A stretch of DNA of 64,000 nt from Scilla litardierei (taxonomy: Eukaryota; Streptophyta; Magnoliopsida; Asparagales; Asparagaceae). The translations under genes and the position numbers were made by a program. Each line of letters begins with the position of its first letter. The stretch's first letter is position 1. The stretch is taken from the NCBI GenBank assembly GCA_030789695.1, contig CM061134.1:66873486-66937485 (forward strand). Reading direction: 5' to 3'. The notes under the pieces were generated by a model. It was not told the origin of the DNA. It worked only from the letters and a program-made list of their open reading frames with translations, and made no database searches. This document shows, in pieces, positions 2,731 to 57,571 of the stretch.

Positions 2731-2935
2731 GGGCTAGGAGGACGACAGGACAAAGGACCGCCTCTCAGGTATCTAGAACATAAGGTACTCCATCAACGAC
2801 CTAGTTCCCCCATTTCATCTCCTTCCTCCCCCGCTCGCGCCGTGAGACGCCGTTCCGATCTCCTCACGAGTCGAACCGTCTCCGCCGGGCCTCCTCTTTC
2901 AGATCTCTATCTGACTTAGGCATCGGAGGGGATTT

Positions 2936-3144
2936 GGCCGGAACCAAGGTCCGGCCCCCTGACGAGTGTTCTCGTCTACGCAGGAGGGCATCAGATCCAC
3001 GGGCCGAGGCTTCCCCTCCGCCCCTCGCTGACCACGCAACCAGCTGGACGATTGAGGCTTCCCCTCGTCGTCCGACCGCCGAGGCCGAGCGCAACCGACC
3101 GAGGCCGAGCGTCTCGACCCGGGCCGAGGCTACCCCTCGCCCTA
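2936..3144 (+). other. Leader hairpins of LTR B
   Basis: Contains GGCCGG/CCGGCC plus ACC/GGT arms (about 2,936-2,957), a perfect GACGAG/CTCGTC 6-bp stem with a TGTT loop (about 2,961-2,976), and three GAGGCTWCCCCTC cores inside different outer arms (GGGC/GCCC, CGA/TCG, GGGC/GCCC). All are downstream of the TATA box and upstream of the primer-binding site. Confidence 0.45.
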
Positions 3145-3322
3145 CCAACGACCGAGGACCCCGATTTAACCCAGTCGACGCGCTCTACGTCGTCTGCTGG
3201 TCCGACTCGAGCCTCAACTGCACCAACTCGACTCGCCCGAGGGACCCAAACGGGCCTCTTGACCACATTGACCGGGTTGTCCACGGTCAACGCTTTGTAG
3301 TGAGAAAACACTCTGAAACATC

Positions 3323-3340
3323 TGGCGCCGTCTGTGGGAA
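3323..3340 (+). other. Primer-binding site of element B
   Basis: TGGCGCCGTCTGTGGGAA starts two bases after the LTR end. This form is common in plant Tat-lineage elements. I do not assign the tRNA. Confidence 0.7.
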
Positions 3341-3378
3341 GCGAAAACCGTCCCACGAAGAAGCAAACCACACCAGTA

Positions 3379-5012
3379 ATGGCACGAGCCAGTAATGGAA
3401 GGAAGCGCATGCCCCCCATCCCGGAGGAGGGGAATGGCGCATCCAACGGCAACCTCGAAGACGCGCCCGTCGACGATCACCCCGCCCCCTCAACCGAAGA
3501 GACCGGCGGCTCAGGACTGGCCACACAGGGACAGCTCCACGCCCTGGCTTAGGAGACCAACGCGAGCCTCCAGACGTTGGTCGCGACGGTACATCAGCTC
3601 GTCGGCCCTGCGCCATCCAACGGAGGCACGTTGGGCGATAGCCATCGATGGGCGTGGGGTCCCCCGCTCTTGTGGTCCGCCGTGGTCGATGACCACGGGA
3701 CCCAAAAACCGAACACGGATCGTCGGTTCACGCTGTCCGGCTCCCGTCAGGCGAGATCACGCGCCTCCTCCCCTTATCGTGAAAGGAGCCGAAAAGAAAC
3801 CGAAGGGACGGAGGGCGAATCGATGACTGCATCATCTCGTCGTTCACGGTCGTCCCGCCGCAGGAGAAGCAAACGACACCACTCGAGAGACCGATCACGA
3901 CGGAGCAGGAGCTCCCGCCGGAGGAGCCGGGAGAGCCGGGTCAGCCCGACCCCCAGCGTGGCGAGGGCCGTGGAGCCAGCCCCACCGGCGCCTATGCACC
4001 CTCCACCACCGAACGAGCCAGAGGCAGGCGACTGTCGAATCCCCGGGGGCATCCATGGAGACCGGTGCCCCCTATCACAGAGAATAACCGACGCACGGGT
4101 CCCCTCTCGATTCAGGATCCCGGCACTAGGGAAGTACGACGGGATAGGGGACCCGGGAAACCACGTAATGGACTACGAGGGGGACATGTCCTTCCAAGGA
4201 GCTGACGATGACCTGCTCTGCCGAGGCTTCTATTCTACTCTCAGGGGAGCGGCGAGGACCTGGTACCGCAGCCTGCCCAGCCGCTCCATCGACAGCTTTG
4301 AGGAACTCACCCAGTTGTTCTGCAAGCAGTTCATGTCAGGGAGGCAGATCAAGCCTGATGCTGAACATCTGTTCAACATAGTGCAAGGCCCGGCCGAGCC
4401 GCTCCGGCAGTTCATGCGCCGCTTCAATGCGGAGAGGCTGAACGTGAACAGCCCTCCCGACCTGGTGGTCCAAACGGCCCTTAAGAAAGGGCTTCGCCAC
4501 AGAGGCTCAAGAAGTCCCTGCACAACGATCCCCCGAAGGACCTCCCCGGGATCATGGCAAGGGCCGAGTGCTTCATGTTGACCGAGGAGGCCTTGGCCGT
4601 GGATGCAGGAAAAGCCACTCGAGGGACCAAACGCGACGACAGCGGACGAGGCAGCCCTGAAGGATACCGGACCGAGAAGAGGCCGAGAAACAGGCAGCGC
4701 GGAGAAGGTACGAGAGACGCCACCCCAGACGCCGTCCTCGCCCAAGTGCAGAAGGAAGAACGCGCCGATCGCCCCCCACCGAGGGCGAAAAGAGGTGGGA
4801 AGAATAAGGAGAAATAATGCAAGTACCACAAGGACGACGGCCACGACACTGAAGACTGCTGGCACTTGAAGAAGGACATTGAGAAGCTGATGAGTCGGGG
4901 GCACGCCAGGAGCTTAGCCGACGAGCCGGCCCATGGGGAAGGGACCTCCATGCAGCCGGACAAGGGGAAGAAGATCAACACCATCCAAGGACCCCTCCGC
5001 ATCGTAGAATGA
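3379..5012 (+). pseudogene. gag: Tat-type gag (element B), broken
   Basis: The frame opens at ATG 3,379 and runs to TGA 5,010-5,012, but has an in-frame TAG at 3,550, a one-base shift near 4,496 and a TAA at 4,815. Visible parts: an Arg/Ser-rich stretch (about 3,810-3,960), a retrotransposon gag capsid-like region (about 4,090-4,490, with the WYRSLP and F..QF..R...K pattern), a basic linker, and after the TAA a nucleocapsid motif CKYHKDDGHDTEDC typical of Tat Gag. Gag would form the particle and bind element RNA. No pol follows: the next 240 bp lead into tandem repeats. Confidence 0.8.
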
Positions 5013-5250
5013 GCGGGCGAGCTCTCTCCCCCAGTCGTAGCCTGGTCCGAGGGGATTATCTAGGTTTACATCCCTCTGTCTAGATTTATTCCCTATTTCC
5101 TTTCCTCCAAATGTACCAGTCCGACAGGACTCTTAAGAGTACAATTGCATTCCCTTTTTGTCTTTTCTTAAATCCTCGACGGAATTGACATTTCACTAAT
5201 AGTGTAAAAGAATGAAGACCGTCGCCTCACTGGAGGAGGAAGGGGGGCAC

Positions 5251-5880
5251 TGCCCTCGCTGACCGACTCATGCGCTCGGAAGCCTGGGGGCAATTCTCCC
5301 AGCTAGCGCGGACGCCGACCGGTCCTAAGCCGAGGAGCTTTGCCCTCGTCGACCGAATCCTGCGCTCATAAGTCTGGGGGCAGTTCCCCCAGCAGGCACG
5401 GACGCCGACCGGTCCTAAGACGAGGAGCTTTGCCCTCGCCGATCGACTCCTACGCTCATAAGTCTGGGGGCAGTTCCCCCAGCAGGCACAGACGCCGACC
5501 GGTCCTAAGCCGAGGAGCTTTGCCCTCGCCGACCGACTCCTGCGCTCATAAGTCTGGGGGCAGTTCCCCCAGCAGGCACGGACGCCGACCGGTCCTAAGC
5601 CGAGGAGCTTTGCCCTCGCCGATCGACTCCTGCGCTCATAAGTCTGGGGGCAATTCCCCCAACCAGCGCGGACGCCGACCGGTCCTAAGTCGAGGGACTT
5701 TGCCCTCGCCGACCGACTCCTGCGCTCATAAGTCTGAGGGCAGTTCCCCCGGTAGGCACGGACGCCGACCGGTCCTAAGCCGAGGAGCTTTGCCCTCGCC
5801 GACCGACTCCTGTGCCCCTAAGTCTGGGGGCAATTCCCCCAGCCAACGTGAACGTCATCCAGTCCTAGGCCAAGAACAAG
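5251..5880. repeat. Tandem array, seven 90-bp units
   Basis: Units start at TGCCCTCG at 5,251, 5,341, 5,431, 5,521, 5,611, 5,701 and 5,791. The period is exactly 90 bp, with a few substitutions per unit. Each contains the palindrome GACCGGTC and the tract CTGGGGGCA. Because 90 is a multiple of three, a 244-codon frame (5,340-6,074) stays open through it; I regard that frame as incidental. Tandem arrays between the coding region and the 3' LTR are known from Tat-lineage elements. 5,013-5,250 shows nothing further. 5,881-6,247 is probably the 3' end of the antisense transcript. Confidence 0.9.
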
Positions 5881-6247
5881 GCAGCAACGCAAAATACACG
5901 AGAAGTCCGAGTAAGTCAATTTCGTTTATAACAGTTAACCAGGGTACAAAAATGTGTCTTAGTTACAGGGAATCGAGGCGAAGAAAACTCTCTACAAATA
6001 ATCCACTCGCGACGAATGAAAAAGTTCGTCACCTACAGAAGCTAGGTCGACACCGACAGAGCAAAATTTGTTGACAAAAGACCCAAAGTAGATAGCCCAA
6101 GCGAGCAGCCATGCAACCAGCAATTATTGGCCCCAGAGCCGGTAGCGAAGCCGAAGGAGATAGCGGGGCCAGGGATCCATTTCAAGTAGACTGGCCCAAA
6201 GCGAAGCGGATGCTAAAAAATTTGAGGATAAGGCCAGGAGGGACGGC

Positions 6248-8398
6248 TTAGGGAGCCCGGGCTCGGGAGGACACATCCTCGGGCACCTCCCCCTGCTCAG
6301 AGCAAGGGGGATCGACCGGCGGAGGAGCTTGCCGAACACGCTCCGCACATTCCCGGAAGGAAGACTGGACGACTTCGACGATCCGAGGGGCGATGAGGTC
6401 TTCATACGCACCGAAGGCCTCCCTGAGAACCTCCAAGATCCTCTTCTCCAGGGTCTCGACGATGCCCCTCTCCACCTCCTCTGCGAGCCGCGTCACCTGG
6501 TGCCGATCCGACAGTTCCCTCTGAAGCTCCTCCCTCTCCAGGCGGAACGACTCCGCCGCTTCCTCAGCTGACTGACGGACATCCTCCAGCTTTCCCTGGA
6601 GGTCACCCACTCGTCCCTCCAACTCGGCCACACGGAGCTTGAGACGCCGAGACTCCATCTGGGCCTCCGTCATAGCCACCTCCGCCACCTCGGCCCGCTC
6701 CTGGGCCCTCATGGAGGACTCCTCCAGCTCCCTCAAGCGGACGGCTCGACACTGCAACTCCACAGCGAGCGCTGAACCCTGGAAAGACGAGACATGGGCT
6801 AAGAAGAGGATAAAGGGAAGGAGAGGATAGCAAGATAACCGAACCTGTTGAAGGATCCAGACCAAGGAATCCGACATCTTGTCGGCATGGATCTTCTTGA
6901 GGAGGCTGCAGTCCCAGGGAGGGACGGAGACCTCGGCAACCTGCTGGGCCAAGGCTCGGTCGACAAACATCGAACTCCCAGGGACGATAAGGGAAGCCAA
7001 ATTGCTCGCCAACAAGGCCCCGATCCCCGGTGATACGGGCGAGGACGCTGCGAGGGGGGTGGTCGACAAGGCTACCGAAGGATCCCCGGTGGTCGCCGCA
7101 GGAAGCGCGGAACCCACCGGACTGGAGGGATCCGCATCCTCCTTCCTCTTCTTTCCTCCGTGGGGCTCCGAAGGCGCCGGAGGGGAGCGCTTCCGCCTTG
7201 CACCATCCCCACCCTCGGGAACCTGAGGGGGCACGCCAAGGGCAGGAGGGACTGCACCGGACCCGTCATTACCCCCTGCCTCTTGGGCTGACGGGGCGGG
7301 TCCGGCCCTTGTGACCCCCCCGGGAAGGGGATCGCCAGAAGAAGAGGTGGGAGGCGCGGCCACCACCTTACCCACGGAAGGCTCGGCTCGGCGCACTTCC
7401 TCCTCAACGGTCCGTCGAGGCGCCCTTCCAGAGGTACTACCTCGGCTCCGAGCAGCTCCACGGCGGATCAGTTCATCGACGTCACGGACGAACTCGCGGC
7501 CAGCCATCCCTGCAAGGGAAACCAAAATCAGGATGAGTCACAGGGCGATTCAAGACTGAAAAGGCGACCTACCCGGAGACCACAAGATGGCCTTCAGGAG
7601 TAGGTCGTCCAACAAGGACCAGATGGACTTCGATTCCAAGGGGAGGGTCGACAGCAGCGCGTCGGCTGCCCGGTCGACGTCTGAGAGAGCTAGCGACGGG
7701 CGAGGCTGGACAGACCCGCCCCAACTTGTCAAAATCTGGGCATCCCCCAGGAAGCCCACAAAGACGTAATCCGAACTCCAATCCCCCGACCAGCGGGGCA
7801 GCCCGATCAGGCATTCTCTCCTCGAGCGGGCCCGGAGCTGCAGCCATGACCCCGGGCCGACCGTCTGGATCTGGTAAAAATGGAAGAGAAGGGGGAGAGA
7901 CGGCTCCAGACCGCGGGTACAACAGAGCGTAGCGAAGCCCGTCAGTACCGCAATCGAGCAAGGGGTGAACTGGCAAAGCGGCACCATGAGATATTCCATG
8001 ACCTGGATAAGGAAGGGATTGAGCGGGAAACGAAGACCCAGGCGAAACATTTCGACGTAGACGCCGACTTCATTGCTCCTCGGAAGGCAAATCCGCTCGT
8101 CGACGAATGGAACTCGGACATCGTACGGGAAGCAGAGATACCTTTCCCGGATCTCCGTGACCGCCGAAGGAATGGTCCTCGACGGCGTTCGGAGGACAAC
8201 CAGGGGCACGTTAAGACGCACGGCAGCCGACGCCACGTCATCACAGGCGTAGTCTGGGAATAGCTTCCCCTTCCCCTTATCTCGGAGGGGACGACTCCCG
8301 GAGGAGGAACCTGATCCCACTAGCCGAGGCCTGCCCCGCCTGGACTCTGGAGAATCCCTCGCCCCTTGGCCAGAACCGCCTATCCTAAGAGCAGCCAT
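6248..8398 (-). CDS. Antisense spliced gene of element B (Transposase_28-like)
   Basis: Read on the minus strand from ATG 8,398. Three exons are proposed: 8,398-7,573, 7,509-6,845 and 6,778-6,248, joined by GT-AG introns of 63 and 66 nt. The first splice (CCGG|GTAGGT ... TTGCAG|GG) joins two separate frames in phase, which is good evidence that it is real. The product would be about 673 residues. Exon 1 carries a region resembling PF04195 ('putative gypsy type transposon'): an N-terminal basic part, then the pattern with LPRS.EV, GLRFPL.PF and P.SIAVLTGF. Exon 2 is Pro/Ser/Gly-rich. Exon 3 is a Glu/Arg-rich coiled coil. A minus-strand TATA box lies 142 bp upstream. Function is unknown; antisense frames at this position occur in Tat-lineage elements. 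No disabling mutation is visible. Confidence 0.75.
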
Positions 8399-9007
8399 AA
8401 TACGAGAGCGAGAAAGGAATTACCTTTTAACTAGTTTGGAGGAGACAAGGAAGCAAAGGCGACGGGAAACTCCGAGTTGTGGGAAGCCTAGAACAATGGG
8501 AAGAGCAAGAAGGAAGTGGAGATCAACGCAGCTGGGGATCTTATATACCGGACACAGGGACGATTTCGAAGCGCCTTACGAGACCGCGTGGCAGGACTCG
8601 AAGAACCGGCGGCGTTTCGAAATCGGCGCCAAGGGAAGTCCAATCGATCCGCCTCATCATGACCTACATTTATGACCACGCCTCGATTAAAGCGCCACTC
8701 GGAATCCCAGGAGGCACAGCGGTCGATCCGAGCAAGCCAAGGCCGATCGACCCCATCGAGGGCGGCTCACAAACCCCTTGGCTTCTCAACTTAAGACGAC
8801 CCCGCGAGCGGTGGGGATAAGCTTGCAGCTACAACGTGGCAGCATCAGAGGACCGAAGGTGCTTTGGAGCCCGCGCCTTAAAAGTATCGAACGGGCCAAC
8901 TCATGATGACGACTAATAAATGAGTCGGCATCGACTGGCGAGCATGTCAAGGTCGGCGGAAGTCACATCGGCCGAGCCGAACCAGCCAAAGCCGACCGAC
9001 CCGACCG
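8399..9007. other. Leader of the antisense gene and 3' region of element B
   Basis: No plus-strand gene. The part near 8,399-8,520 should be the 5' leader of the antisense transcript. The rest, up to the polypurine tract, is GC-rich and shows repeated CGATC / CCGACCGA motifs but nothing I can name. Confidence 0.5.
8540..8547 (-). promoter_or_regulatory. TATA box of the antisense gene
   Basis: Minus-strand TATATAAG, 142 bp upstream of ATG 8,398. This spacing is plausible for a TATA box, about 30 nt to the cap site, and a 110-nt leader. Confidence 0.6.
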
Positions 9008-9018
9008 ATGGGGGCAAT
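9008..9018 (+). other. Polypurine tract of element B
   Basis: ATGGGGGCAAT directly precedes the 3' LTR start TG at 9,019. Confidence 0.7.
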
Positions 9019-9934
9019 TGTTCCGCCTATTTGCCCGAGGCCCGAAAGACACGAGCCCAGAGACCCGACCGCCGGTCAAGAGCCCATCTGTGCACTCAGG
9101 CCCACTCGATAAGGCCCTATAGGGGACCCCCCCAAATGTCGATCCGACCCGGCCCCGGTGACACACCGGTCACTCGCCCACTCCTGCGATAACCGCCCCC
9201 TCGATCCCGCTACCACTTAATGGCAGTTATAGGGGGGTGCTGGCATGGCGCAGGGAGCGGTGACGGGGGGGCGGATCGAGGGGGCACGATTGAGGGCGGG
9301 CGAGCGACGTGGGTCGGGGGCAATCACGGCGGAGGTCTATAAAGGGGCTAGGAGGACGACAGGACAAAGGACCGCCTCTCAGGTATCTAGAACCTAAGGT
9401 ACTCCATCAACGACCTAGTTCCCCCATTTCATCTCCTTCCTCCCCCGCTCGCGCCGTGAGACGCCGTTCCGATCTCCTCACGAGTCGAACCGTCTCCGCC
9501 AGGCCTCCTCTTTCAGATCTCTGTCTGACTTAGGCATCGTAGGGGATTTGGCCAGAACCAAGGTCCGGCCCCCTGACGAGTGTTCTCGTCTATGCAGGAG
9601 GGCATCAGATCCACGGGCCGAGGCTTCCCCTCCGCCCCTCGCCGACCACGCAACCAGCTGGACGATTGAGGCTTCCCCTCGTCGTCCGACCGCCGAGGCC
9701 GAGCGCAACCGACCGAGGCCGAGCGTCTCGACCCGGGCCGAGGCTACCCCTCGCCCTACCAACGGCCGATGACCCCGATTCAACCCATTCGACGCGCTCT
9801 ACGTCGTCTGCTGGTCCGACTCAAGCCTCAACTGCACCAACTCGACTCGCCCGAGGGACCCAAACGGGCCTCTTGACCACGTTGACCGGGTTGTCCACGG
9901 TCAATGCTTTGTAGTGAGAAAACACTCTGAAACA
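9019..9934 (+). repeat. 3' LTR of element B
   Basis: Direct repeat of 2,404-3,320, 916 bp. It starts TGTTCCG (one change from the 5' copy) and ends GAAACA, followed by the target duplication copy GCTGT. Confidence 0.9.
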
Positions 9935-10763
9935 GCTGTGGAAAAAAATCAACCGAGGAACATCAGACTTATTTCTATCAGAGACAGACTTACTCCATAC
10001 AACTCTGTCAATCCATCCTTATGCCAGAGTTGTCGTCGGATAAAAACTTCGAGCTAAAGACATGGTTAGTTATGCTGATGCAACAAGATCCTTTCCATGA
10101 GAATGCACATGAGAACACACATTATCACATTCAGATGTTCTTGGCAAAGTGCGCCACTTTTCAGGTCACTAGCATATCAGAGGACGCCATCCGCCTGTGG
10201 CTCTTTCCTTTCACACTTAAAGACAAAGCATTGTATTGGTTGAGGACGCAAGTGAATGATACTTTCACTTCATGGGACGATCTTGCAAGTGCCTTCATCA
10301 ACAAATTCTATCCACCATCAAAGACCGTCAGGTTACTAAATTCATTGTTGTCATTCAGGCAAGGGCCCCAGGAATCTTTATATGAGGCATAGGAGCGCTT
10401 TAAGGATCTTCAACATCAATGCACCACAACATCGACGATTGGGAGTTGGTGCATAGCTTCTATAATGGTTTAAACCCAGACACTAAAATGCTTATTGATG
10501 CCACCGCCAATGGGGCAATACTATCAAAGACTCCTGAAGAGGCCACGACACTACTTGAGGAGATGGCTTCTAATAATCAGCAGTGGGCTAACAATAGAGG
10601 CCAATCATCATCATCCTTGAAGCCAGTTAGCCTATATGAGGTGAAAGCAGTGGAAGACTTGACTGGGAGATTTGATGCTCTATCCAGAGTGGTAGAGAGG
10701 ATTGAGAAGAAGCTGAGTGAGCCACTAGTGCTTAAGGTACGTCAACATCCAGTGGGGGCATGA
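9935..10763 (+). pseudogene. gag: Athila gag, main fragment (element A)
   Basis: Continues the gag of element A beyond element B. Recognisable Athila Gag blocks: NFELKTWL near 10,046, DAIRLWLFPFTLKDKALYWL near 10,180-10,240, FINKFYPPSKTVRLLN near 10,296-10,340, FRQGPQESLYEA then TAG at 10,390-10,392 (family members have Trp here), and in another frame FYNGLNPDTKMLID and EEATTLLEEMASNNQQW (10,460-10,590). Breaks: a frame change near 10,020, the TAG, and a frame change near 10,420. Sequence similarity fades after about 10,763; no A-type pol or 3' LTR is visible downstream. Confidence 0.8.
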
Positions 10764-44271: not shown

Positions 44272-45036
44272 GCGCCTGATCACTCCTTATTTTACACCTT
44301 TTTTCCGCATATTTGCATGCCATTTAGATCGCCCAAATCATGTTTTTCACGATATATCGACGATATTGCGATGCTTTTCACGATTTGTTGTTTTTGTCGC
44401 ATTTCAGGTGATTTGGCGCGATTTGGAGTGATCTCGAGATGCGCTTACTCTAGACGGTCACCGACGACCTCCTCGAGGGGTATTTTGCTGATTGGAGAGG
44501 AGCGGAAGAAGAATGGACGTCGCAGGAGCGACGAGGAGGCCAAAACAAGCAGATTGGGCATTCTTTGTGTCCCACTCGGCCGAGTGGAGGAGCCACTCGG
44601 CCGACCAGCGAGACACTGCTCGGCCGACCAGTTCAGACACGATTTCTATGTGCACTCGGCCGAGCACCGAAGACCACATCGGCCGAGTGACGATACCACG
44701 TCCGCCCGAGTGGCGCCCAGACGAAGCCCTTCCAAAACATCGAAGTTACTGTTTTTCGGCTGCCTGAACTTCAGAAGACCCACTCGGCCGAGTGGTAAAT
44801 CCCGTCCGCCCGAGTGCAGTGAAGTCATCGGCCGAGTGACGACAACTCACTCGGCCGAGCCGCCCCCGAACTGAAGACCCCTGAAAGACCCGACTTACTG
44901 GAAAATTGCAGGGTTTTCACTCGGCCGAGCGACTTTTGTCACTCGGCCGAGTGCGATGTGCTGCCTGTAGCGAAAACTGCGGAAAACAGGCTGTGCAGGG
45001 GTATTTTGGTCACGATTTTTGGACGATTTTTGGGGC

Positions 45037-45044
45037 TATTTAAG
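45037..45044 (+). promoter_or_regulatory. TATA-like box of LTR J
   Basis: TATTTAAG, about 80 bp after the last U3 palindrome. The 3' LTR has the same site. Confidence 0.5.
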
Positions 45045-45431
45045 CCCTGTTTTTACCCTAGTTTAGAGAGCTCTCTCTTAGATTTTTTGCAGCTTTTTAG
45101 ATTAGTTTTTTTAGCTTTATTCTTGTGATTGGAGAAGGAGCAAAACTTGGATTTTTGTTGGATTAATTGAAGAACTACATTGGTTTGCATCTCTTTTCCC
45201 TAAAAATTCTATTTTTATTGTTTATATCATTGTTGTGATGAATTCTATTACTTATCTCAACGATTATTTTTGTGATCTTGCTATGATTTGTGAGTAGTCT
45301 CCACGTCTTGGGGCGTGGGGATAAACCCTACAAGCCCACTTTCATATTTGTGATGAATTGGTAGAAATTGAGCTAGAATTGCTATTAGAGATTAGATTGG
45401 GATCGATTTACTACAGATTGCTAGGTATTCA

Positions 45432-45742
45432 TATCAATTGGGATTTGCAAGAGATTGGATCCCAATTTGATAGGAAGCCCTAGAAATCCGAATTGGGTTG
45501 GAGTCGGATTTTTCGAAGTATCGGTTTGCAAGAGATTGGACCGATACTAGGATTCCCGGTTGCAATTCTATACCGATACCCGTTTGCAAGAGATTGGACG
45601 GGTAGGAACTATCCTAATCTAGATCGTGGACCGAGCTTGCAAGAGATTGGGCTCGGTGCGCGATTGGACGATGATGTTGATCCTAATGCTAGCTTCCCTA
45701 GGGTAGGGTTTGCAAGAGATTGGACCCGACCCTAGGATAGCT
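45432..45742 (+). other. Five-hairpin leader array of LTR J
   Basis: Five exact copies of the 14-nt loop TTGCAAGAGATTGG (45,445; 45,526; 45,584; 45,637; 45,710), each inside arms of different sequence that pair: TATCAATTGGGAT/ATCCCAATTTGATA, AGTATCGGT/ACCGATACT, TACCCGT/ACGGGTA, ACCGAGC/GCTCGGT, and a 19-nt arm pair with 16 matches. Inside the loop CAA-GAGA-TTG can form a capped mini-stem. A sixth stem AAATCCG/CGGATTT (45,484-45,511) has a different loop. All are repeated at about 56,652-56,961 in the 3' LTR. Confidence 0.8.
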
Positions 45743-46101
45743 ATAGACCGGCAACAGCGCGAGAGCGTGAGCTTGGTTCTACATTCAGTTGCAACTAGTT
45801 CATCCGAATTCTCATTCTAGCGATTTTGATACCGATGAACCACATTTATGAAGTACGGTGTGTAGCGGGGATTCCCCATTCCCTAGACGTTCTTTATTTG
45901 ATTTGATATTTCGCACATTTGTCTGACGATTGTGACAGGATCGCCAAAGGCAAATTTCTCTTCTTAAAATAGCCAGGTTGATCGGAGCAAGCACAGTCAT
46001 TCATCCTCCCTGTGTTCGATATCCCGCTCGCTGCTACACCGTGCACTTGCGGTAAAACTACAACCGTTCTCTGGGTGTATACTCGGGACCGATCAAGTTT
46101 T

Positions 46102-46119
46102 TGGCGCCGTTGCCGGGGA
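46102..46119 (+). other. Primer-binding site of element J
   Basis: TGGCGCCGTTGCCGGGGA, the standard Athila site (tRNA-Asp type), six bases after the LTR. Confidence 0.9.
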
Positions 46120-46266
46120 GGCGCGTTTTGACGGTGTTCGGCATCGACCACCAGGTTATTTCTTCTTACTTTCTTCCTTTACTTCCCTCTATATCTTACT
46201 CTAACTTTATTCGCAGCACTATTTGCATGTTCTCCCCGTATTTTGCATAAGATCTTAACAGGGAGA

Positions 46267-49200
46267 ATGGAGGATGCAATGCCAACAATAGAACTCAGTC
46301 GGGAAGACTATGACTCCTTCACAGACCTCCTTAAGGAGCTTGTCGACGAGGTCCACGCTACCGGAGCATTTGCTATCGATATCAAGGACCCCGACGAACA
46401 ACTATTTGCTAGTTTTGTGATGGACCAAATCTCCCCGGAGGGGACTATCGGAGGCAATGTCAGAGTTGACGTGGTCGACGACAAATTGTATTTCGAAGAC
46501 AATAGAGCAAGTGTCGAAGAACACTATGCTCCCGAAGAACCCTTCGAGCAAACCGACATTCAGGGAGTTACACTCTATGCCGCTCACTCTTGTTTTTATG
46601 AATCGTCTGATGTGTTTCTTGATTCCAGGTACGAACCGGAGCAGAGTGAAGGTTTTGGCGATGCTAGCACTGAATCGGAGGGCGCCTATTTCGATGCCTC
46701 ATCCTCACTAAGTAGCGAGTCTGACTCGTCACAAGAGAGCATGCCACCAGAACATGAGCTAAACCCGGATAACAAGGAAGAAGTCGAACTCATGCGAGCC
46801 GATGAAGTGGAAGGAGCAGCGCCACCTGAGGTAGAGCTTAAACAATTACTACCGAATCTAAGGTATGCCTTTTTGGGTAATAAATTAACTTTCCCGGTGA
46901 TAGTCAATTCCCACCTCACACAAGATCAACTTGAAAAACTCCTAGACGTTCTTAGGAGTCACAAGGACGTCCTGGGCTACACTATCTCCGATCTAAAAGG
47001 GATAAGCCCTAGGCTTTGCACGCATAGGATCCATTTGGAGGATACCGATGCCACCTCCATTGAGCCTCAAAGGCGGTTAAACTCGAATATGAAGGAGGTG
47101 GTAAAAAAGGAAATCCTAAAATTGCTAGAAGCCGGTATTATTTATCCTATCTCTGACAGTAGATGGGTTAGCCCCGTTCACGTCGTCCCCAAGAAAGGGG
47201 GGATGACGGTTATAAAAAATGAAAAAGGTGAGCCCATATCTACGCGCACCGTCACGGGATGGCGAATGTGCATTGACTATAGGAAACTTAATAAAGCTAC
47301 CCGAAAAGACCACTACCCATTGCCCTTCATTGATCAAATGCTTGAGCGCCTTGCAAAACATAAATACTTTTGCTACCTAGATGGGTATTCGGGATTCTTC
47401 CAAATCCCTTTGCACGAAGATGACCAAGAGAAGACAACTTTCACTTGTCCCTATGGCACCTATGCCTACCGTAGGATGCCGTTTGGCCTTTGTAATGCCC
47501 CCGCCACTTTTCAGAGGTGTATGACATCCATATTTTCCGATTACATTGAAAATATTATGGAAGTTTTTATGGATGATTTCTCGGTTTACGGAAGTGAGTT
47601 TGACTCTTGCTTGGAAAATCTCACTAAAGTCCTAAAAAGGTGCCAACAAAACAATCTTACTCTCAATTGGGAGAAGTGTCACTTCATGGTCACGGAAGGT
47701 ATAGTTCTCAGACATCTTGTTTCCTCAAGAGGAATTGAGGTAGATAAAGCAAAAATTGAGGTAATCGAAAAACTTCCTCCTCCTATTAATGTCAAGGGCA
47801 TTAGAGGCTTCCTTGGCCATGCGGGGTTTTACCGCCGCTTCATCAAGGACTTTGCCTCGATTGCCCGACCACTTACTTCCTTGCTCGCTAAAGATGTTCC
47901 TTTTGACTTTTCAGGAGGATGCTTGCAAGCTTTCAACACCTTGAAGGAAGCGCTAGTCTCCGCACCCATCATACAACCGCCGGATTGGAGCCTTCCTTTT
48001 GAACTAATGTGCGATGCTAGCGACCAAGCCATTGGAGCGGTATTGGGACAAAGGAAAGATAGGAAGCTTCATGCGATATACTATGCGAGCAAGACATTGG
48101 ATGACGCGCAGAAAAACTACACAACTACCGAAAAGGAGCTTCTAGCGGTCGTCTATTCCATAGAGAAGTTTCGCTCCTACCTCCTCTGTTCCAAGGTGAT
48201 TGTCCACACCGACCATGCGGCATTGAAGTATCTTTTAAACAAGAAGGAGGCCAAACCCCGGTTGATTAGGTGGATACTCTTGTTGCAAGAATTCGACCTA
48301 GAGATCAGAGATAAGAAGGGTATAGACAATGTCGTGGCAGATCATTTATCTAGGCTCATTCGCGACAAGGAGGATGAGAGCCTACCTATTGAAGACACAT
48401 TTGTTGATGAGAGGCTATATGCGGTAAGGACCGGTGAAGTACCTTGGTACGCGGACTTCGTCAACTACTTGGCTTGCGGAATCAAACCGCATGGGATGTC
48501 CACGCAACAAAAGAGGAGATTTATGCATGAGGTCCGTAGCTATTTTTGGGAAGATCCTTACCTTTTCAAGATATGCAAAGATAGTGTCATTCGTAGGTGT
48601 GTTTCTAAAGAGGAGGCAACGTCTATCATTTTGCATTGCCACGGTCTACCATGCGGGGGACATCATGCCGCCTCTAAAACAACCGCTAAGATCTTGCAGA
48701 GCGGATTCTTCTGGCCAACAATGTTTAGGGACACCCACACTTTTGTGAAGGGGTGCGATAGATGCCAACGGACCGGGAATATCTCCAAGCGCAATGAGAT
48801 GCCGATGAGACCCATCCAAGAAATTGAGCTTTTTGATTGTTGGGGAGTAGACTTCATGGGGCCATTTCCGTCGAGCAATGGTAACAAATACATCCTATTG
48901 GCCGTTGACTATGTCTCCAAGTGGGTGGAAGCAATTGCCACCCCTACCAATGATGCAAGAGTCTTCTCCAAGTTCTTTAAGCAAAATATCTTCCCGCGCT
49001 TTGGAGTGCCGCGTACTTTGATAAGCGACGGGGGAAGCCACTTCATAGAGAACAAGTTTGAAGCCATGCTAAAGAAGTACGGGGTAAATCCTAGAGTTGG
49101 CATGGCTTATCACCCCCAGACTAGCGGCCAAGTGGAAGTCTCAAATAGAGAAATTAAGCAAATTCTCGAAAAGACGGTGGATCGATCTAGAAAGGATTGG

Positions 49201-50145
49201 TCGATGAAGCTAAACGATGCTCTATGGGCATATCGTACGGCCTTTCGTACTCCCATAGGCACCACGCCGTTCCGACTCGTTTATGGGAAAGCTTGCCACT
49301 TACCGGTAGAGTTGGAGCACCGCGCATATTGGGCCATCAAAACCTTTAATTACGATTACAAAAGTGCCGCGGTGAGGCGACTCTTGGACATCAACGAGCT
49401 TGATGAGATAAGAAGAGACGCCTACGAAAGCTCAAGAATTTACAAAGAAAGGACCAAGATTCTTCACGATGCCCGCATAACCGTCACAGACTTCAAAGTA
49501 GGAGACAAGATCTTGCTCTATAATTCCCGGCTCCGACTATTTCCCGGTAAGTTGAGGTCACGTTGGTCCGGACCTTTCACCATCAAGCACATACAACCGG
49601 GCGGAGCTTTCGAGTTGGAAAGCAAGGACGGTTCCACATTCAAAGTAAATGGTCAGAGGCTCAAACACTATTCCGAGGGAGTCCCGACGGGCGAAACCAA
49701 TAGAATATATTTGCTTAAGGGACGGTCGGAAGACCTCATGGACCTCCTCGACGAGGTGATTGAAGAGGCGATCCCTCACTCAATTGGCGCTCTTTTCGAT
49801 GAAGATTTTGAGGAAGGCCCGGATTTAGGCCAAGATGAGAAGAAAAATGATTCCCCCGACCTCTCCGCTGAAGATGATGAAGGCGACGCTGATGTCGCAA
49901 GGATTCGAGAGCTCTGCAAGCTCTCGAAACTAAAGTCTCCGAAGAAAGCTCCGCCGGTACGGAAATCGGCATCACCGGTTAAGCCGTTGACCGGAGCAAA
50001 TGCTAGCTTGGGGGAGCCTCCCCCCAACACTATTCGAGACGAGAGACCACCGCGGGAGAACACTACGCCGCAACTTTCCAATCCAAGCGTTCTCCCCGGA
50101 AAGTTTGATGGGTGCATCTCATATGCACCGAACATCCCGCATTAA
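46267..50145 (+). CDS. pol: Athila Pol polyprotein (RT, RNase H, integrase) of element J
   Basis: Uninterrupted frame of 1,292 codons from the first ATG (46,267). Residues 1-200 are acidic and show no gag or protease motif. Reverse transcriptase about 205-480, with FMDDFSVYG (DD at 436-437). RNase H with D583, E624 and D649. Integrase with a His/Cys zinc region (about 785-840), then catalytic D862, D921 and E957 (D-58-D-35-E). The C-terminal part is acidic and Pro-rich. The enzymes would copy element RNA and insert the cDNA. Usual Athila Gag-Pol is longer because gag and protease come first; here both are absent, so Pol could not be released or packaged without help. The frame is long and clean compared with its neighbours. 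Confidence 0.93.
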
Positions 50146-50187
50146 TTGAAAATTATAGGGGGTCGAGCTCACGACCTTAAACGAGCG

Positions 50188-50210
50188 CTTGTCGGGAGGC
50201 AACCCGACGG
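50188..50210 (+). other. Hairpin after the pol stop (GTCGGG/CCCGAC)
   Basis: A 6-bp perfect stem around the loop AGGCAA, 45 bp after the stop, followed by a T-rich run. The GGGAGGCAACCC core is a frequent sequence at this place in plant Athila elements; its role is not established. Confidence 0.5.
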
Positions 50211-50467
50211 TTTTTGCTTTATTTTTACTTTTTCTTTATTTTCATTTTAGAAATTTTTAGTGTTTTGAGTCGTTCGCCCAAAAATTTTGCGATAACGGGT
50301 CCTATTTTTTTTGACAGGAGAGGAGATAGGTAGATCCATCATGAGGAGGATGAACGAGTCGACGAGGAGCGCCCCAAGAAGGCGCTCGACGCTTAGGAGG
50401 AAGATGAAATCGACTGGAGGAAGAAAGACGGAGTTTAGAGCCAAAACGAAGACAAACAGCAGAACAC

Positions 50468-50808
50468 AAGGCTCACTCGGCCGAGTATACTAGTCACTCG
50501 GCCGAGTACACAAGTTCATCCGGCCGAGCCGCTCACGAACGAGGGAAGTCTGTTGTACCCAACTCTCTGTTTATTTTCCTGATTTCAATATAACTGCTAC
50601 TCGGCCTAGTACATATTCCCACTCGGCCGAGTAAAACGGATACCCTCCTAGGGCGAGTCTTGCCGAGTAGCTTGAGTCACTCGGCCGAATGGACTTACTC
50701 CACTCGGCCGAGGCTGGCAAAGCCACTCGGCTGAAGCGTAAGCGGGGAGGAAATTTTCATTGGCCCCGCTCGGCCGAGTGACCACGTCACTCGGCCGAGT
50801 CGTAACTT
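50468..50808. repeat. U3-like palindrome array inside element J
   Basis: About ten copies of CACTCGGCCGAGTG and variants between pol and the env-like frame, the same motif as in both LTRs of J (44,575-44,960 and 55,800-56,185). It is followed within 20 bp by a TATA box. Confidence 0.8.
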
Positions 50809-50812
50809 CTAT

Positions 50813-50820
50813 TATATAAG
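50813..50820 (+). promoter_or_regulatory. TATA box of a candidate internal promoter (J)
   Basis: TATATAAG just downstream of the internal palindrome array, then a C-rich leader (50,845-51,014) and a possible intron: donor CTCCG|GTATCA near 51,016, acceptor CATGCGCAG|GTTG near 51,178, ahead of ATG 51,357. Confidence 0.5.
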
Positions 50821-51356
50821 GAGCTGAGGGGGCGCATTTTTCGAAATCGCAAAATCCCCCAAACCGCCCGACGCCTCAGCTCCCCTCGCCCGAACCCCCC
50901 ACGCTCGCACCCATACTCGGCCGCCCGCGCCGCCGCTCGGCCCGCTACCGCCGGCCGACCACCGCTACGACTCGCCCGAGTCGCCGCCGGCGGCAGCTGC
51001 TCCGGCCACCTCCGGTATCACCCATATTGCCCGTTTTCTCCTCTTTTCGAGTATTTCTTGAGGATCCATGTGCTAAACGCCCCTCTAACCCAAATCAATT
51101 CTTATACCTATCTATTATACCCCTAATACTCCATACATTTTGAATATTACCCGCTGAAATCGCCGTTTCATGCGCAGGTTGCTTTTTGGAGCTTAGGGGA
51201 GCCCAGGGGAGCTTCTACGGGCTGATCCGGACTTCGCGGAGGCGCTGACTTCGCACGCTTCCACTGCTTAGCACTCGCGGCGTGTCGGGGTACACTCTTT
51301 CCACTCTTTTACACGCACCGCACTTTTTTTCACTTTTCGGCGCGCTCGGGGCCGAT

Positions 51357-53554
51357 ATGCCGCCCCGGACACGGCCGCGGTCGAAGAGAGCTTCTGCCAA
51401 GCGGAAGCGGTCGGATGATGCCGGCCCCTCCCACGAGTTGGAGGACTCTCCTCCACCGTCCCCCACACACCCCGCACACCCAGCACAGCCTGCAGGCCCT
51501 GCACACCCCGCACAGCCTGCAGTGCACCCACAGCCCGCACAGCCTCTCCCCGCCGACCCACAGCCACCACCACCGGCTCCACTGGTCGGGCCGCTCGGGA
51601 TTACGTTCCGAGACGACGCACACCGCGCCGTCTTCGAGCGTATCTCCCAGCGCTCGATCGTACCCTCCAGGTTTGCACACCTCGCTGACCTAGGACGCCT
51701 GGGGGTACTAGAGGGGATGCTCACGTTGTACGACAACGTGGGCTGGCGAGATTTTCTGTAGGTGTCGGCGGATACTTTTACCCGCCCGACACTTGAGGTT
51801 TTGAGTTCGATCGCCCGGACCGACGAGGGATGCTCATTCCGGTTCATGGATCGAGAGTGCCAGGTCACTCTCGATATGATGAGAGCATTCTTCTCGTGGC
51901 CCGCTGTCCCCGGTGCCGATCGCGGTTACGGCCCCACCCATATCCCCCCCACCTTCCTTCGATGCCGGTGCCTTCTGGGCCCGGATTACGGGTCACCACG
52001 CTGCCTTTGACCCTAGTAGGGCCAAGGCCTCGGCCATTGTCCACCCCTGCCTCCGTATAGCCCAGCGCCTCATGGCGACCACCTTTTTGGCCAGATATGA
52101 GCCGTGCACAATGTCTACGCCAGAGCTCTACATGCTCTATGCGATGACTCGTCCCAGAGCTCTATCTAGGGATGGAGCCGAGTTTGTCCCTGCCGTCGTG
52201 ATCGACATTGCGGCTTGGTTTTTAGACCGCATCATTGTATCGGTGGGCGCTCGCTCACCGATATGCTGCGGCGGTCTGATCACCTTGCTTACCATGATGA
52301 CCGGCGAGGACCTACCTGACGACTTGTGACGCGTCCCAGGCCCCACTTCTATGTCGATAGACGTTATGGCCAGGATGAAGATGCTTCATCCGCATGGTGA
52401 GCGTCACTGGGTCTGGTTGCATGGCCCTTACGGTGCCGACTACATGATTCTCTCGAGCCCTGCTCGGACTCAGATTGCACCAGCCCACGTCGACTGGCTC
52501 CCTGCCGATGGATGTTCTCATCCCCGCTGCCTACGTGCTCGAGGCTGAGGAGGCCGAGGAGGCCCACGCGGCCCATGCTGCCCAGGCTGCCCCCGCAGAC
52601 CCTGCTGCATACCCTGCCGAGCCTGCTGCCGACCCTGTTGACCCAGTGGCCCCTCAGCCTATTCCTGGTGTTTCTGCCGCTCTTGACACCTCTGTCCCCA
52701 CCTCTGTCAGTGTCACGAGTACCTCAGCTGAGCCCACTTCCACCACCACTTCCGAGGCTGTCACCACCACTCCCACCACCACCACTGGCCCTCTGTCCGT
52801 CGAGCCACTTTGCTCCGCACTCCCCGAGCGCCCGCCGACCTTTGTTGAGAGTGGAGAGCCCTCGTTTGCCGCGGTCGTGGAGACCATGGCTAGCATGATC
52901 TCCGCTGGGGTTGCGCCTTTTGGTCCACACACTTCCGCCCCAGCGGTAGTTACCTCTGTCTCCACCCCTGCTGTATTTTCTGAGAGCGTCGTGGCGTCTG
53001 TCCACACTTCTGTGCCACTGACCTCTCTAGCCGCCTTGCATCCACTTTTGCACTCTTCTTTCGCTGCCGCTGCCTCCATTTCTCACCGCGCTCCCCGGCC
53101 TCACACTGATGCCATGCCCACATTTGCAGGCACGGCACCTTTTGTCCCCTTCCCTGCTGAGCCCGTTACATACTCTACTCGCGTACGCCAGCCTCGCCCT
53201 GCACAGCCTAGACTGGTGCGTCCCTCTGCACCACCCCCGCCCGACACTGTACTGCAGAGCATACGTGCTCTTGAGTTGGCGGTGAGTGGTCTTAGAGGTG
53301 ACCTTAGGACCCTGTCCTCCACCGTCTCTACGATGGCTGGACGCTTCGAGCTGATCCCCCAGATCCACTACTACCTTACACAGGTCTTGGAGCGTCTCCC
53401 ACGCGTACCCCCACCCACCCAGCAGGTTCCCACACACACTTCCACACACACTAGACCTGCTTCCACTTCCACGCCCACCCCAGCTCAGCAGCCTACACCA
53501 CCACCACCACCACCTCCGCCTCAGGACGGAGACGGCTCAGCACCACCTTCTTAG
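51357..53554 (+). pseudogene. Athila env-position frame of element J, broken
   Basis: Candidate ATG 51,357 (MPPRTRPRSKRASAKRKR), a Pro/His-rich stretch, then a conserved region (DDAHRAVFERISQRSIVPSRF...LYDNVGWRDF) resembling the ATHILA ORF-1-type protein (PF03078-like) found after pol in Athila elements. Breaks: TAG at 51,759, a frame change near 51,955, TGA at 52,327, and a frame change near 52,475. The last frame (52,475-53,554) is Ala/Pro/Thr-rich with a helical segment near 53,280-53,400 and a poly-Pro end. No clear signal peptide or membrane helix is seen, so the envelope role is only positional. Confidence 0.7.
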
Positions 53555-55490
53555 GCACCCTTGATGCCTTGATTTATTCCTGCCGTTGTGCTGCCCGTTT
53601 CTGCTGGGTCCTGTTGCACTTTTTGTCCCCCCCCTCCCCTCACTTATTATGGTATTCTCTTTTTGATCATATCTTTTTATATCTATTTTGGGAGAGAGGG
53701 AGAGTTTTTGGTGACACTTATATCTATGTATCGCTCATATCTGTGCATGCATCATGTCCGCATCATATTTTTATTTCTTTATTTTACCTTTTTCTTTTCA
53801 TTTTTCCATGCATGCATCCTCACTTGCCCCTCCCATCGCTTGTCTCTCGGTGTGCCACACTTTGCACATTGAGGATACTGTGCCATTTAGCTTGGGTGAG
53901 TGAGTTCTCATGTTCTTTTTCGATTTGCCACCTTTATTTTTAGTTTTTCACACCATTTTTTCGCTTTTGCACTTATTTTTCATCACTTTTCTTTTATTTT
54001 GCCATGCATCACGTTTTTCTTATTTTCCTGTGTGCCGCATTGCATAGTTTCTATTTTCCCTTTATCTTTATTTCTTTTTCATCTCATGCTAGAGATGACT
54101 TTTCTATGATGATGATGACGTTGGATTTAGCTTATTCTATATGCATGCTATATTTGTCATGTCTTAGGTTTTATTTCAGATATCAGATGCTATGACTTGC
54201 TTTGCATTTAGAATAGTAACCCACACCTTTTTCCGCATGAAAATGGATGAAATTTTATTATTAGCTGAGTCTGAATATTCATATGTATGCTATCACAAAA
54301 AACACACCAAGATTCACGCATTGAATGCTTATATCTGGAGTACTGACTTTCTTTTCCTATATCACTTCTATATGCATGAATTGTACACTTCACTTCAGGA
54401 TGATTGAATGATGTTAGCTATGATATATCTGGATTAGTTAGCTTTTTTGTGATCGAAACTGAGTAGATTAGATTACCCTGCTGAAGTTGTCGTGCATGTC
54501 TTATAGAGTGAACCGAGAGTTATATTTATTTCTTTCTCCACAAATCTTGAACATCATTTCTCTACTTTTCAAATCATTGGTGAATCTCCCCTTAGTGATT
54601 CTATTTTATGGCATTTTATCCCGCTACTAATTCCTAGCTCCAAATCTCTTATTCTATAAAATAAAAAAAAAGAGAGAAAAACATTCTTGTACATCATTAT
54701 CTCTCTCTGAGTTGGGATCGTTGTGTATATATTGCTTAATGCAAAAAAAAACAAAAAAAAAAAAAAAGAGGAAAAATCCTCAATGAAAGATCCCATCTCA
54801 CTTTCTTTCTTTCTTCTTTCTTTTCGTTGCTTTTGGAGCTATATGTATAAAAAATTGGGGATGTAAATATTTTTTTTGCCACCATGCTTATAGATAAGCT
54901 TGGGGGAGGGGATCCATTGATGTGTGAGAGAGTGACTACTTGACATTGCACGACAACCTAGGCTAAGTAATATTCTATACTCAGTGAGATTATTTTAGTT
55001 TTACGAAATCCAGAAATCTAAGCCTAGCGTTCATTTCATGAAATCCATACTTTTCTATTCTCTCTATTCTATAGTGTGATACTTTTATACTCCAGATAGA
55101 AAGCGTTCAATTGAAAAGTGTGTGATCTGTGATTTGTATACCGCTTTAAATGATTCAGACGACGTTAATTTTAAAATTATTCCGTTTTTCATGATTATAA
55201 CGTTTTTCGTGGGTTTTCTATTTCTATTTGCACTATTATACTATGATATCAAAATAAATTCCTTTGACATGAGTTTTTCATTCGGTGCATGCTATAAGAG
55301 TAAGTGAAACCCGCGTCCTGAGAAAATGATCGAGTATCCTACCTCTTCGCTTCTTTCTTTCTTTCTTCTTTATTTTCATTTCGTTTTCATTCTTCTTCAT
55401 TTTTCATTTTTTCATTTTCCGCCGGTTTTCGTTTTCCAAATCCACCGGGTTCGCCTTTTACTTATCTTCCTCGAGGACGAGTAAGAGGCA
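53555..55490 (+). other. 3' untranslated region of element J
   Basis: T-rich, no gene. A-rich runs lie near 54,660 and 54,740-54,770. AGCTTGGGGGAGGGG at 54,897-54,910 duplicates the terminal polypurine tract; a weaker copy is at about 53,888, and another lies in the pol end at 50,004. Confidence 0.7.
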
Positions 55491-55504
55491 AGCTTGGGGG
55501 ATTT
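55491..55504 (+). other. Polypurine tract of element J
   Basis: AGCTTGGGGGATTT directly precedes the 3' LTR. Confidence 0.75.
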
Positions 55505-57322
55505 TGATCACTCCTTATTTTACACCTTTTTCCCGCATATTTGCATGCCATTTAGATCGCCCAAATCATGTTTTTCACGATATATCGACGATATTGCGAT
55601 GCTTTTCACGATTTGTTGTTTTTGTCGCATTTCAGGTGATTTGGCGCGATTTGGAGTGATCTCGAGATGCGCTTACTCTAGACGGTCACCGACGACCTCC
55701 TCGAGGGGTATTTTGCTGATTGGAGAGGAGCGGAAGAAGAATGGACGTCGCAGGAGCGACGAGGAGGCCAAAACAAGCAGATTGGGCATTCTTTGTGTCC
55801 CACTCGGCCGAGTGGAGGAGCCACTCGGCCGACCAGCGAGACACTGCTCGGCCGACCAGTTCAGACACGATTTCTATGTGCACTCGGCCGAGCACCGAAG
55901 ACCACATCGGCCGAGTGACGATACCACGTCCGCCCGAGTGGCGCCCAGACGAAGCCCTTCCAAAACATCGAAGTTACTGTTTTTTGGCTGCCTGAACTTC
56001 AGAAGACCCACTCGGCCGAGTGGTAAATCCCGTCCGCCCGAGTGCAGTGAAGTCATCGGCCGAGTGACGACAACTCACTCGGCCGAGCCACCCCCGAACT
56101 GAAGACCCCTGAAAGACCCGACTTACTGGAAAATTGCAGGGTTTTCACTCGGCCGAGCGACTTTTGTCACTCGGCCGAGTGCGATGCGCTGCCTGTAGCG
56201 AAAACTGCGGAAAACAGGCTGTGCAGGGGTATTTTGGTCACGATTTTTGGACGATTTTTGGGGCTATTTAAGCCATGTTTTTACCCTAGTTTGGAGAGCT
56301 CTCTCTTAGATTTTTTTGCAGCTTTTTAGATTAGTTTTTTTAGCTTTATTCTTGTGATTGGAGAAGGAGCAAAACTTGGATTTTTGTTGGATTAATTGAA
56401 GAACTACATTGGTTTGCATCTCTTTTCCCTAAAAATTCTATTTTTATTGTTTATATCATTGTTGTGATGAATTCTATTGCTTATCTCAACGATTATTTTT
56501 GTGATCTTGCTATGATTTGTGAGTAGTCTCCACGTCTTGGGGCGTGGGGATGAACCCTACAAGCCCACTTTCATATTTGTGATGAATTGGTAGAAATTGA
56601 GCTAGAATTGCTATTAGAGATTAGATTGGGATCGATTTACTACGGATTGCTAGGTATTCATATCAATTGGGATTTGCAAGAGATTGGATCCCAATTTGAT
56701 AGGAAGCCCTAGAAATCCGAATTGGGTTGGAGTCGGATTTTCGAAATATCGGTTTGCAAGAGATTGGACCGATACTAGGATTCCCGGTTGCAATTCTATA
56801 CCGATACCCGTTTGCAAGAGATTGGACGGGTAGGAACTATCCTAATCTAGATCGTGGACCGAGTTTGCAAGAGATTGGGCTCGGTGCGCGATTGGACGAT
56901 GATGTTGATCCTAATGCTAGCTTCCCTAGGGTAGGGTTTGCAAGAGATTGGACCCGACCCTAGGATAGCTATAGACCGGCAACAGCGCGAGAGCGTGAGC
57001 TTGGTTCTACATTCAGTTGCAACTAGTTCATCCGAATTCTCATTCTAGCAATTTTGATACCGATGAACCACATTTATGAAGTATGGTGTGTAGCGGGGAT
57101 TCCCCATTCCCTAGACGTTCTTTATTTGATTTGATATTTCGCACATTTGTCTGACGATTGTGACAGGATCGCCAAAGGCAAATTTCTCTTCCTAAATAGC
57201 CAGGTTGATCGGAGCAAGCACAGTCATTCGTCCTCCCTGTGTTCGATACCCCGCTCGTTGCTACACCGTGCACTTGCGGTAAAACTACAACCGTTCTTTT
57301 GGGTCACGTCCCGGAGCGATCA
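55505..57322 (+). repeat. 3' LTR of element J
   Basis: 1,818 bp, direct repeat of the 5' LTR including palindromes and leader hairpins. Its last 20 bp differ from the 5' copy far more than the rest. Confidence 0.93.
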
Positions 57323-57327
57323 GCGCC

Positions 57328-57571
57328 TGCAAACACAAAGGTTTGTTCTTCTAAGAATTTTATTTTCAAATGTTTATATTTGATCTGTTCTTGTACGGTC
57401 GGTTCGCATCCCTCCTTAGATAGTAATGATCATGCATATCTTTTTTATTCCGTAAATTTTTTCATACAAAAGTGTTTTTATTATTTTTCTTCTTCTGTTG
57501 CTCCCCCTGTCTGCTAAGCCTAGGGCTAGGCATTGGGAAAATCCCTATGGAAGCCTCTTTAAACCCCTTCA
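57328..57571 (+). repeat. Candidate copia-type LTR I, right end
   Basis: Continues 44,271 after removal of J and one target duplication copy. Ends TTCA at 57,571, followed after one base by TGGTACCAAAGC (57,573-57,584), close to the copia primer-binding site TGGTATCAGAGC. Confidence 0.5.

Follow-up and report, generated by a model that had tools for sequence, protein, structure and literature searches.

Retroviral packaging signals, such as that of mouse mammary tumour virus (MMTV), lie in a structured 5' leader near the primer-binding site (PBS) and expose purines to Gag, MMTV Gag binding single-stranded purines (PMC8096270; this and the other papers are cited throughout for particular passages). 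Among retrotransposons with long terminal repeats (LTRs), the barley pair BARE1/BARE2 includes a plant element without Gag, BARE2, that is packaged into virus-like particles, with conserved packaging and dimerisation signals (PMC3735527). The encapsidation determinants of yeast Ty1/Ty3 include cis-acting sequences in or beside the LTRs (PMC4974528), and the export elements RTE and MTE are structured cis-acting RNAs of LTR elements with a different function (PMC12786077). In Athila elements, Arabidopsis families without pol have been argued to be mobilised in trans (PMC2410132), and SIRC arrays, similar in ATHILA2 and ATHILA6A, set short direct repeats between unlike sequence (PMC10342631). Here, we describe a 64,000-nucleotide stretch of Scilla litardierei DNA (contig CM061134.1, positions 66,873,486 to 66,937,485, forward strand; hereafter the window), in which an Athila-type LTR retrotransposon, element J, carries in each LTR five hairpins with one constant loop on different stems.

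Apart from BARE, the packaged RNA of LTR elements was said in 2013 to be fairly little known (PMC3735527), and how plant Ty3/gypsy elements choose RNA for packaging seems poorly known, the main text of a 2025 review (PMC12786077) containing no "stem-loop". Against this background, we read the J hairpins as a conserved sense-strand RNA array in Athila-type leaders that would bind protein multivalently, most likely Gag in packaging or dimerisation; we hold this reading tentatively, at a little short of an even chance.

Results

Five hairpins with one loop in the predicted leader of element J

The 14-mer TTGCAAGAGATTGG occurs five times in each J LTR, every copy between pairing arms, as the original prediction claimed and as exact matches and folds confirm in both LTRs. 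Exact copies start at 45445, 45526, 45584, 45637 and 45710 of the window in the 5' LTR and at 56674, 56754, 56812, 56865 and 56938 in the 3' LTR. The hairpins are the following, element A being a diverged relative of J treated below.

45436-45467, + strand: J hairpin 1, loop TTGCAAGAGATTGG at 45445-45458, within an outer CTAGG/CCTAG stem common to element A
45517-45548, + strand: J hairpin 2, loop at 45526-45539, missing from the J/A consensus fold
45575-45606, + strand: J hairpin 3, loop at 45584-45597
45628-45659, + strand: J hairpin 4, loop at 45637-45650, closing pair C-G
45697-45736, + strand: J hairpin 5, loop at 45710-45723, stem broken once by a mismatch
45746-45778, + strand: possible sixth, weaker J hairpin, present in the J/A consensus fold; its core, GCGCGAGAGCG, resembles the element A form
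56661-56970, + strand: the same five hairpins in the J 3' LTR

Uninterrupted Watson-Crick pairs flanking the 14-mer number 9, 9, 7, 7 and 4 in hairpins 1 to 5. In the last of these, an A.G mismatch breaks the stem after four contiguous pairs and pairing resumes beyond it, so the arm length of 7 to 19 nt given at first is generous for hairpin 5 if uninterrupted pairing is meant. The reported change of the closing pair from T-A to C-G, with both sides altered, is real and belongs to hairpin 4; the C to T difference in the fourth stem of the 3' LTR (45636 versus 56864) is also there and gives a U.G pair.

The stems are far better than chance would provide. Their summed score is 111, and the maximum among 20,000 control draws (2,000 leader shuffles, each drawn once at the original and nine times at random places, five sites per draw) is 45. 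The fold of the region 45395-45780 has a z of -7.05, and none of 100 dinucleotide shuffles was as good.

What does the loop itself look like? The proposed CAA-GAGA-TTG mini-stem appears in the minimum-energy fold, but in the 5' leader its three upper pairs (CAA/UUG) have a probability of just 0.54-0.62. Firmer, at 0.83-0.91 in the 5' leader for the better of two U's, is the U.G pair at the base of the loop, which is distinct from the U-A pair below it. The tetraloop is of GNRA type in J, where every loop reads GAGA, but this does not generalise: the A loops read GAGA, GACG, TAGA and AAGA, and GNRA is therefore not a feature of all members, as it would be in a GNRA hairpin family. Separately, a kissing partner was sought, and the interval 44277-57330 holds no complement of the 14-mer of at least 9 nt, only one 8-nt word.

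Covariation inside the J array

Changes in the stems keep their pairing. The J hairpins were aligned in ten ungapped rows (seven distinct), which are paralogous hairpins and LTR copies rather than independent species. Standard pairs fill 93.4% of the 91 cells, compared with 72.1% after shuffling (0/500), and both sides have changed in 9 of the 13 pairs (5.2 shuffled; 2/500), four pairs being invariant. Cells with both sides changed number 22 (7.3 shuffled; 0/500), and the covariation score is 0.674 compared with 0.221 (0/500). Sliding the partner by 1-3 columns abolishes the signal, a shift of one column halving the pairing, in a control that favours the structure, which was taken from the same sequences.

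Aligned hairpins in element A

A second Athila-like LTR, element A, is diverged from J; it ends near 2172 and is followed by a PBS-like site (2177-2197) with three mismatches. It is 68% identical to J over ~210 bp directly upstream of the array, and the leaders are 57% identical. Four of its units, at 1626, 1682, 1735 and 1806, align with J hairpins 2, 3, 4 and 5, with different stems and with loops that are related yet different.

1615-1645, + strand: A hairpin 2, opposite J hairpin 2 in the alignment; shifted core favoured by RNAfold
1671-1701, + strand: A hairpin 3, 9-bp stem, bulged G, TAC-GACG-GTA
1724-1754, + strand: A hairpin 4, bulged G, CGC-TAGA-GCG, different stem
1794-1825, + strand: A hairpin 5, GG bulge, CGC-AAGA-GCG, different stem; RNAfold prefers an alternative pairing

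Hairpins 4 and 5 are anchored by flanks common to both elements, namely CTAGAT before hairpin 4 and, between hairpins 4 and 5, GATC, one variable base and TAATGCTA. Because these adjoining flanks are shared, hairpins 4 and 5 seem older than the split between J and A. A hairpin 3 has a pair probability of 0.74-0.90, and the A region folded alone gives a z of -3.81. In registers set by hand for hairpins 2-5 (1 and 6 excluded), 34 of 52 positions pair in both J and A; of these pairs, 17 differ between the elements on both sides, 3 on one side and 14 not at all.

The A loops are akin to one another (hairpin 3 least) and distinct from those of J, which are all identical, and the loops of both elements retain exposed purines. 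Judging from these two leaders, the loops seem to have changed together and the stems separately, whichever form is ancestral.

The consensus fold and its controls

Unguided RNAalifold on the J and A leaders gave a consensus of -74.95 kcal/mol with 84 pairs, 24 of them changed on both sides. Hairpins 4 and 5 appear in it, including the upper stems, as do hairpin 3 with its lower stem and hairpin 1 with its upper and outer stems; it also has the possible sixth hairpin and, enclosing hairpins 1 to 3, a long-range helix. That candidate helix joins 45395-45403 to 45611-45619 (alignment A3, columns 1-9 and 218-226) and is kept in J and A. Two sets of column-shuffled alignments had mean energies of -34.2 and -35.5 (z -8.1 and -7.4; 0/200 each); the number of pairs is less extreme than the energy (7/200 and 9/200 shuffles).

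With another alignment of the hairpin region, z was -8.9 on the sense and -4.5 on the antisense strand. Sense and antisense values in control regions were -2.9 and -5.2 (upstream leader), -1.65 and -2.6 (downstream leader) and -4.1 and -6.3 (U3). The test thus responds to other structured or palindromic DNA too; the hairpin region scores highest of the four and is the sole one in which the sense strand exceeds the antisense.

Covariation inside the J array, the aligned hairpins with different stems in element A and a consensus fold far below the shuffles support the conserved RNA structure put forward in the original prediction.

Descriptor scans, models and database searches

How specific are these units? 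A descriptor with an AGA loop matched A units at 1626, 1735, 1806 and 1850, and a general descriptor matched those at 1682, 1735 and 1806. On the + strand of the window, the general descriptor has 31 matches, of which 18 lie outside the J LTRs and the A leader and 13 within them; the - strand has 11. Single matches are thus not rare; clustering and position carry the weight. Model R1, built from five J and four A units, was run against 67,922 bases (the window plus the bacterial-labelled contig L121 described below); at E up to 10 it has 14 matches, all of them in J/A LTRs. This result is one of specificity and not of new finds, as it comprises the nine training rows and their five 3' LTR copies. 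Model R2, built from J alone, returned 54 matches at E up to 10 with the 10 J units on top. The possible sixth J hairpin was matched neither by R1 nor by either descriptor scan.

Rfam gave no family for 44500-46500, only four matches at E 1.7 to 4 with scores of 15.4-18.8 against cut-offs of 38-197. The 14-mer occurs in at least 120 stretches of IMG/VR; the 80 matches listed have one copy each, which we take as chance. Patterns for the PBS, the LTR end and tandem loops had no match in IMG/VR, and neither a search with a 631-aa stretch spanning reverse transcriptase and integrase nor a plasmid search returned any match. Among GTDB genomes, one contig has the PBS, and the descriptor and model scans found no array units upstream of it. 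This contig, BMWJ01000030 (L121:1-3922), is filed under Streptomyces clavifer JCM 5059. It has a plant-type LTR/PBS junction and 31-42% GC, and because of this junction and the low GC it is probably plant contamination.

Element J and its surroundings

The retrotransposon that carries the array has the following parts.

44277-46096, + strand: 5' LTR of element J (TGATCA...CGATCA), from LTR comparison, with ends and a GCGCC duplication read from the flanks
55505-57322, + strand: 3' LTR of element J, from LTR comparison, with ends read from the flanks
45037-45043, + strand: TATA-like box TATTTAA, which would put the J hairpins in the transcribed leader
46099-46119, + strand: PBS-like sequence TTTTGGCGCCGTTGCCGGGGA, directly 3' of the 5' LTR, an exact pattern match
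46243-50145, + strand: open reading frame for reverse transcriptase, RNase H and integrase, in which Pfam detects no gag domain

Both LTRs start with TGATCA and end with CGATCA, and GCGCC flanks the element on both sides (44272-44276 before the 5' LTR, 57323-57327 after the 3' LTR). The LTRs are 98.9% identical (44277-46070 versus 55505-57297; 1795 columns). Near the LTR end, 11 differences are crowded into 19 nt (46071-46089), compared with 20 elsewhere, which is unexpected if one template supplied both U5 ends.

The domains RVT_1, RT_RNaseH and rve, together with PF03078 ATHILA at 51913-52326 (E 3.6e-06, past its cut-off), give J the reverse transcriptase, RNase H, integrase and Athila-type protein of the Athila lineage, an assignment by domains and not by phylogeny. 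The PBS-like site stands right behind the 5' LTR and is exact in J; we take it to be that of tRNA-Asp, and presumably it is a mark of the Athila lineage. The array was said to be transcribed ahead of the PBS, and it does lie downstream of the TATA-like box (45037) and upstream of the PBS-like site (46099), but the transcript start is placed by TATA-like boxes. With that start, J has in silico the structured 5' leader expected of a packaging signal.

Where is the Gag of element J? Pfam found no Gag domain in five frames (E up to 0.001) or in ten stop-to-stop pieces chosen around 48 listed (E up to 1), and a fixed-motif scan found no CCHC knuckle in J, the only two in the window being at 15744 and 28377. 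Because the same library detects Retrotrans_gag in two other elements of the window, J, which apparently lacks Gag, would probably need it in trans if mobile. Element A is split at about 2403-9938 by a nested LTR element with a gag domain, whose repeats (2403-3324 and 9018-9938, ~920 bp) are 97.9% identical. Immediately after it, a gag domain lies in frame at 9931-10389 and, from its place, probably belongs to element A.

Palindromic boxes of the CTCGGCCGAG type were also observed: six per J LTR upstream of the TATA-like box (44574-44953 and 55802-56181), nine in element A (294-921), and a second J cluster of six at 50476-50800, between pol and the ATHILA-domain frame, which is followed by TATATAAG. 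They resemble the CGG-CCG boxes of Sireviruses, which lie upstream of TATA and in some cases 5' of env (PMC2829016), although Sireviruses are Ty1/copia elements.

Discussion

Could the five hairpins serve as repeated docking sites for a protein? Stems that are free to change yet keep pairing, combined with a constant bulge and loop, are the look of a repeated protein-binding hairpin. Each unit would start from a lower stem of free sequence, usually closed by U-A, followed by a 5' bulge of 1-2 nt with G as its last base, an upper stem of 3 bp and a tetraloop rich in purines, NAGA in most cases. A single trans-acting RNA-binding protein would thereby meet one binding face in several copies at once. 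The likeliest partner would be Gag, either of the element's own family or, for the apparently gag-less J, of a helper, and the array would mark genomic RNA for packaging or dimerisation. Gag is a guess, prompted by the place of the array in the leader before the PBS, by J's apparent lack of Gag and by the exposed purines. The loops within an element may switch together because they share this partner. The folded leader RNA is probably preserved by selection, and we infer that the selected form is RNA and not DNA.

A bolder version would make the loops a family-specific address code (CGC-NAGA-GCG versus CAA-GAGA-UUG) read by one trans-acting protein, the Gag-less element keeping the code so as to be carried by a helper. 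We regard this as possible but doubtful. If it is true, the binding faces of one element would change jointly and each stem on its own.

Several observations weigh against the protein-binding array. The upper pairs of J have the modest probabilities given above. In element A, hairpin 1 folds weakly, RNAfold favours a shifted GC-hexaloop-GC core for hairpins 2 and 5, and the antisense fold is the more stable one in hairpins 1 and 2 (2 of 12 units). In the consensus fold, hairpin 2 gives way to other helices and hairpin 3 lacks its upper stem. The count of pairs changed on both sides in this fold is only modestly above shuffles (z 2.2 and 2.5; 4/200 and 2/200), as are the further pair types inside J (14 versus 11.6 shuffled; 44/500). 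The upstream leader and the palindromic U3 are also significant in the consensus-fold test, if more weakly, U3 more so on the antisense strand. The A units are absent from the R2 matches at E up to 10, which weighs against kinship of the J and A hairpins at the sequence level; the case rests on their aligned position. Finally, the comparison covers just two elements, J and A, and a diverged Gag may escape both Pfam and a fixed motif.

Which other explanations have to be weighed? Constitutive transport elements of animal retroelements serve the export of unspliced RNA. By analogy, a host export factor might be drawn to the repeated loops and take unspliced RNA out of the nucleus. Such a role accords just as well with binding faces repeated on variable stems, RTE and MTE are named as elements of this kind (PMC12786077), and the ATHILA-domain frame downstream of pol could need regulated splicing. 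However, no Rfam family matches 44500-46500 better than E 1.7, Rfam being the only comparison made with known elements, and we consider export unlikely.

Translational control, in which a structured leader of ~1 kb would make ribosomes shunt or stall, strikes us as quite unlikely. The leader region is strongly structured in both elements and contains many ATGs (9 in 45068-46250 of J, 17 in 1161-2290 of A), but a constant loop on free stems is left unexplained. By eye, no short open reading frame ends just upstream of one large hairpin, and the layout of a ribosome shunt is not evident.

At the DNA level, the hairpins could be palindromes that serve as sites for a dimeric DNA-binding protein or that act through cruciforms or insertion. 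The U3 of J and A does have palindromic boxes and does score in the consensus-fold test. On the other hand, the 14-nt core is loop-centred and asymmetric, the arms have no common sequence to bind, and the hairpin region alone of the four has the sense strand ahead (z -8.9 versus -4.5), all of which makes this explanation improbable.

The original prediction had also raised hairpin copying, in which a templating process would have multiplied a single hairpin and varied its arms, without function. J hairpins 2 and 3 lend it some colour, being 86% identical over 28 nt with inner arms that differ by two double, pair-keeping changes. Elsewhere it fares poorly: hairpins 4 and 5 adjoin flanks shared with element A, and the likeness of arms is about equal within J (mean 5.8/16 over 10 pairs) and across the two elements (mean 5.75 over 20 pairs). 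Copying would also carry the arms along, whereas the five J loops are identical to one another and unlike those of A. Whole-hairpin copying was disfavoured on the shared flanks and the arm-likeness matrix, and we rate copying as decidedly improbable. Selection by a common partner is preferred because the loops seem to have changed together while the stems changed separately.

Plant Dicer-like substrates have longer stems than these hairpins. That the hairpins feed Dicer-like proteins is the most improbable of the alternatives, as a conserved binding face is not expected of a small-RNA substrate, although Athila6 transcripts give small interfering RNAs of 21-22 nt, with fold-back among the models considered (PMC3276544).

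Comparison with known systems

The protein-binding array that we favour would be a cis-acting structured leader RNA of a retroelement in a form that we have not found described. A constant-loop, covarying hairpin array in Athila LTRs did not appear in the portion of the literature searched, where it may still be published, and a search by the 14-mer returned no paper. Rfam families have nothing in common with the array, their matches falling far under the curated scores. The SIRC arrays of Athila elements are described at the DNA level, with "hairpin" occurring nowhere in the text consulted (PMC10342631), and the J repeat is 14 nt. For Ty1/Ty3, the text of PMC4974528 consulted has no "hairpin", and no repeated constant-loop array was noted in it. 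BARE1 and BARE2 are Ty1/copia elements, and neither "hairpin" nor "stem-loop" occurs in the main text of PMC3735527.

Identical loops on free stems provide a concrete, short and testable packaging candidate, and the array offers a way to ask whether loops match Gag-less Athila elements to their helpers. Compared with retroviral packaging signals as MMTV represents them (PMC8096270), element J is distinguished by five copies of one putative binding face, set on unrelated stems and lying inside the LTR.
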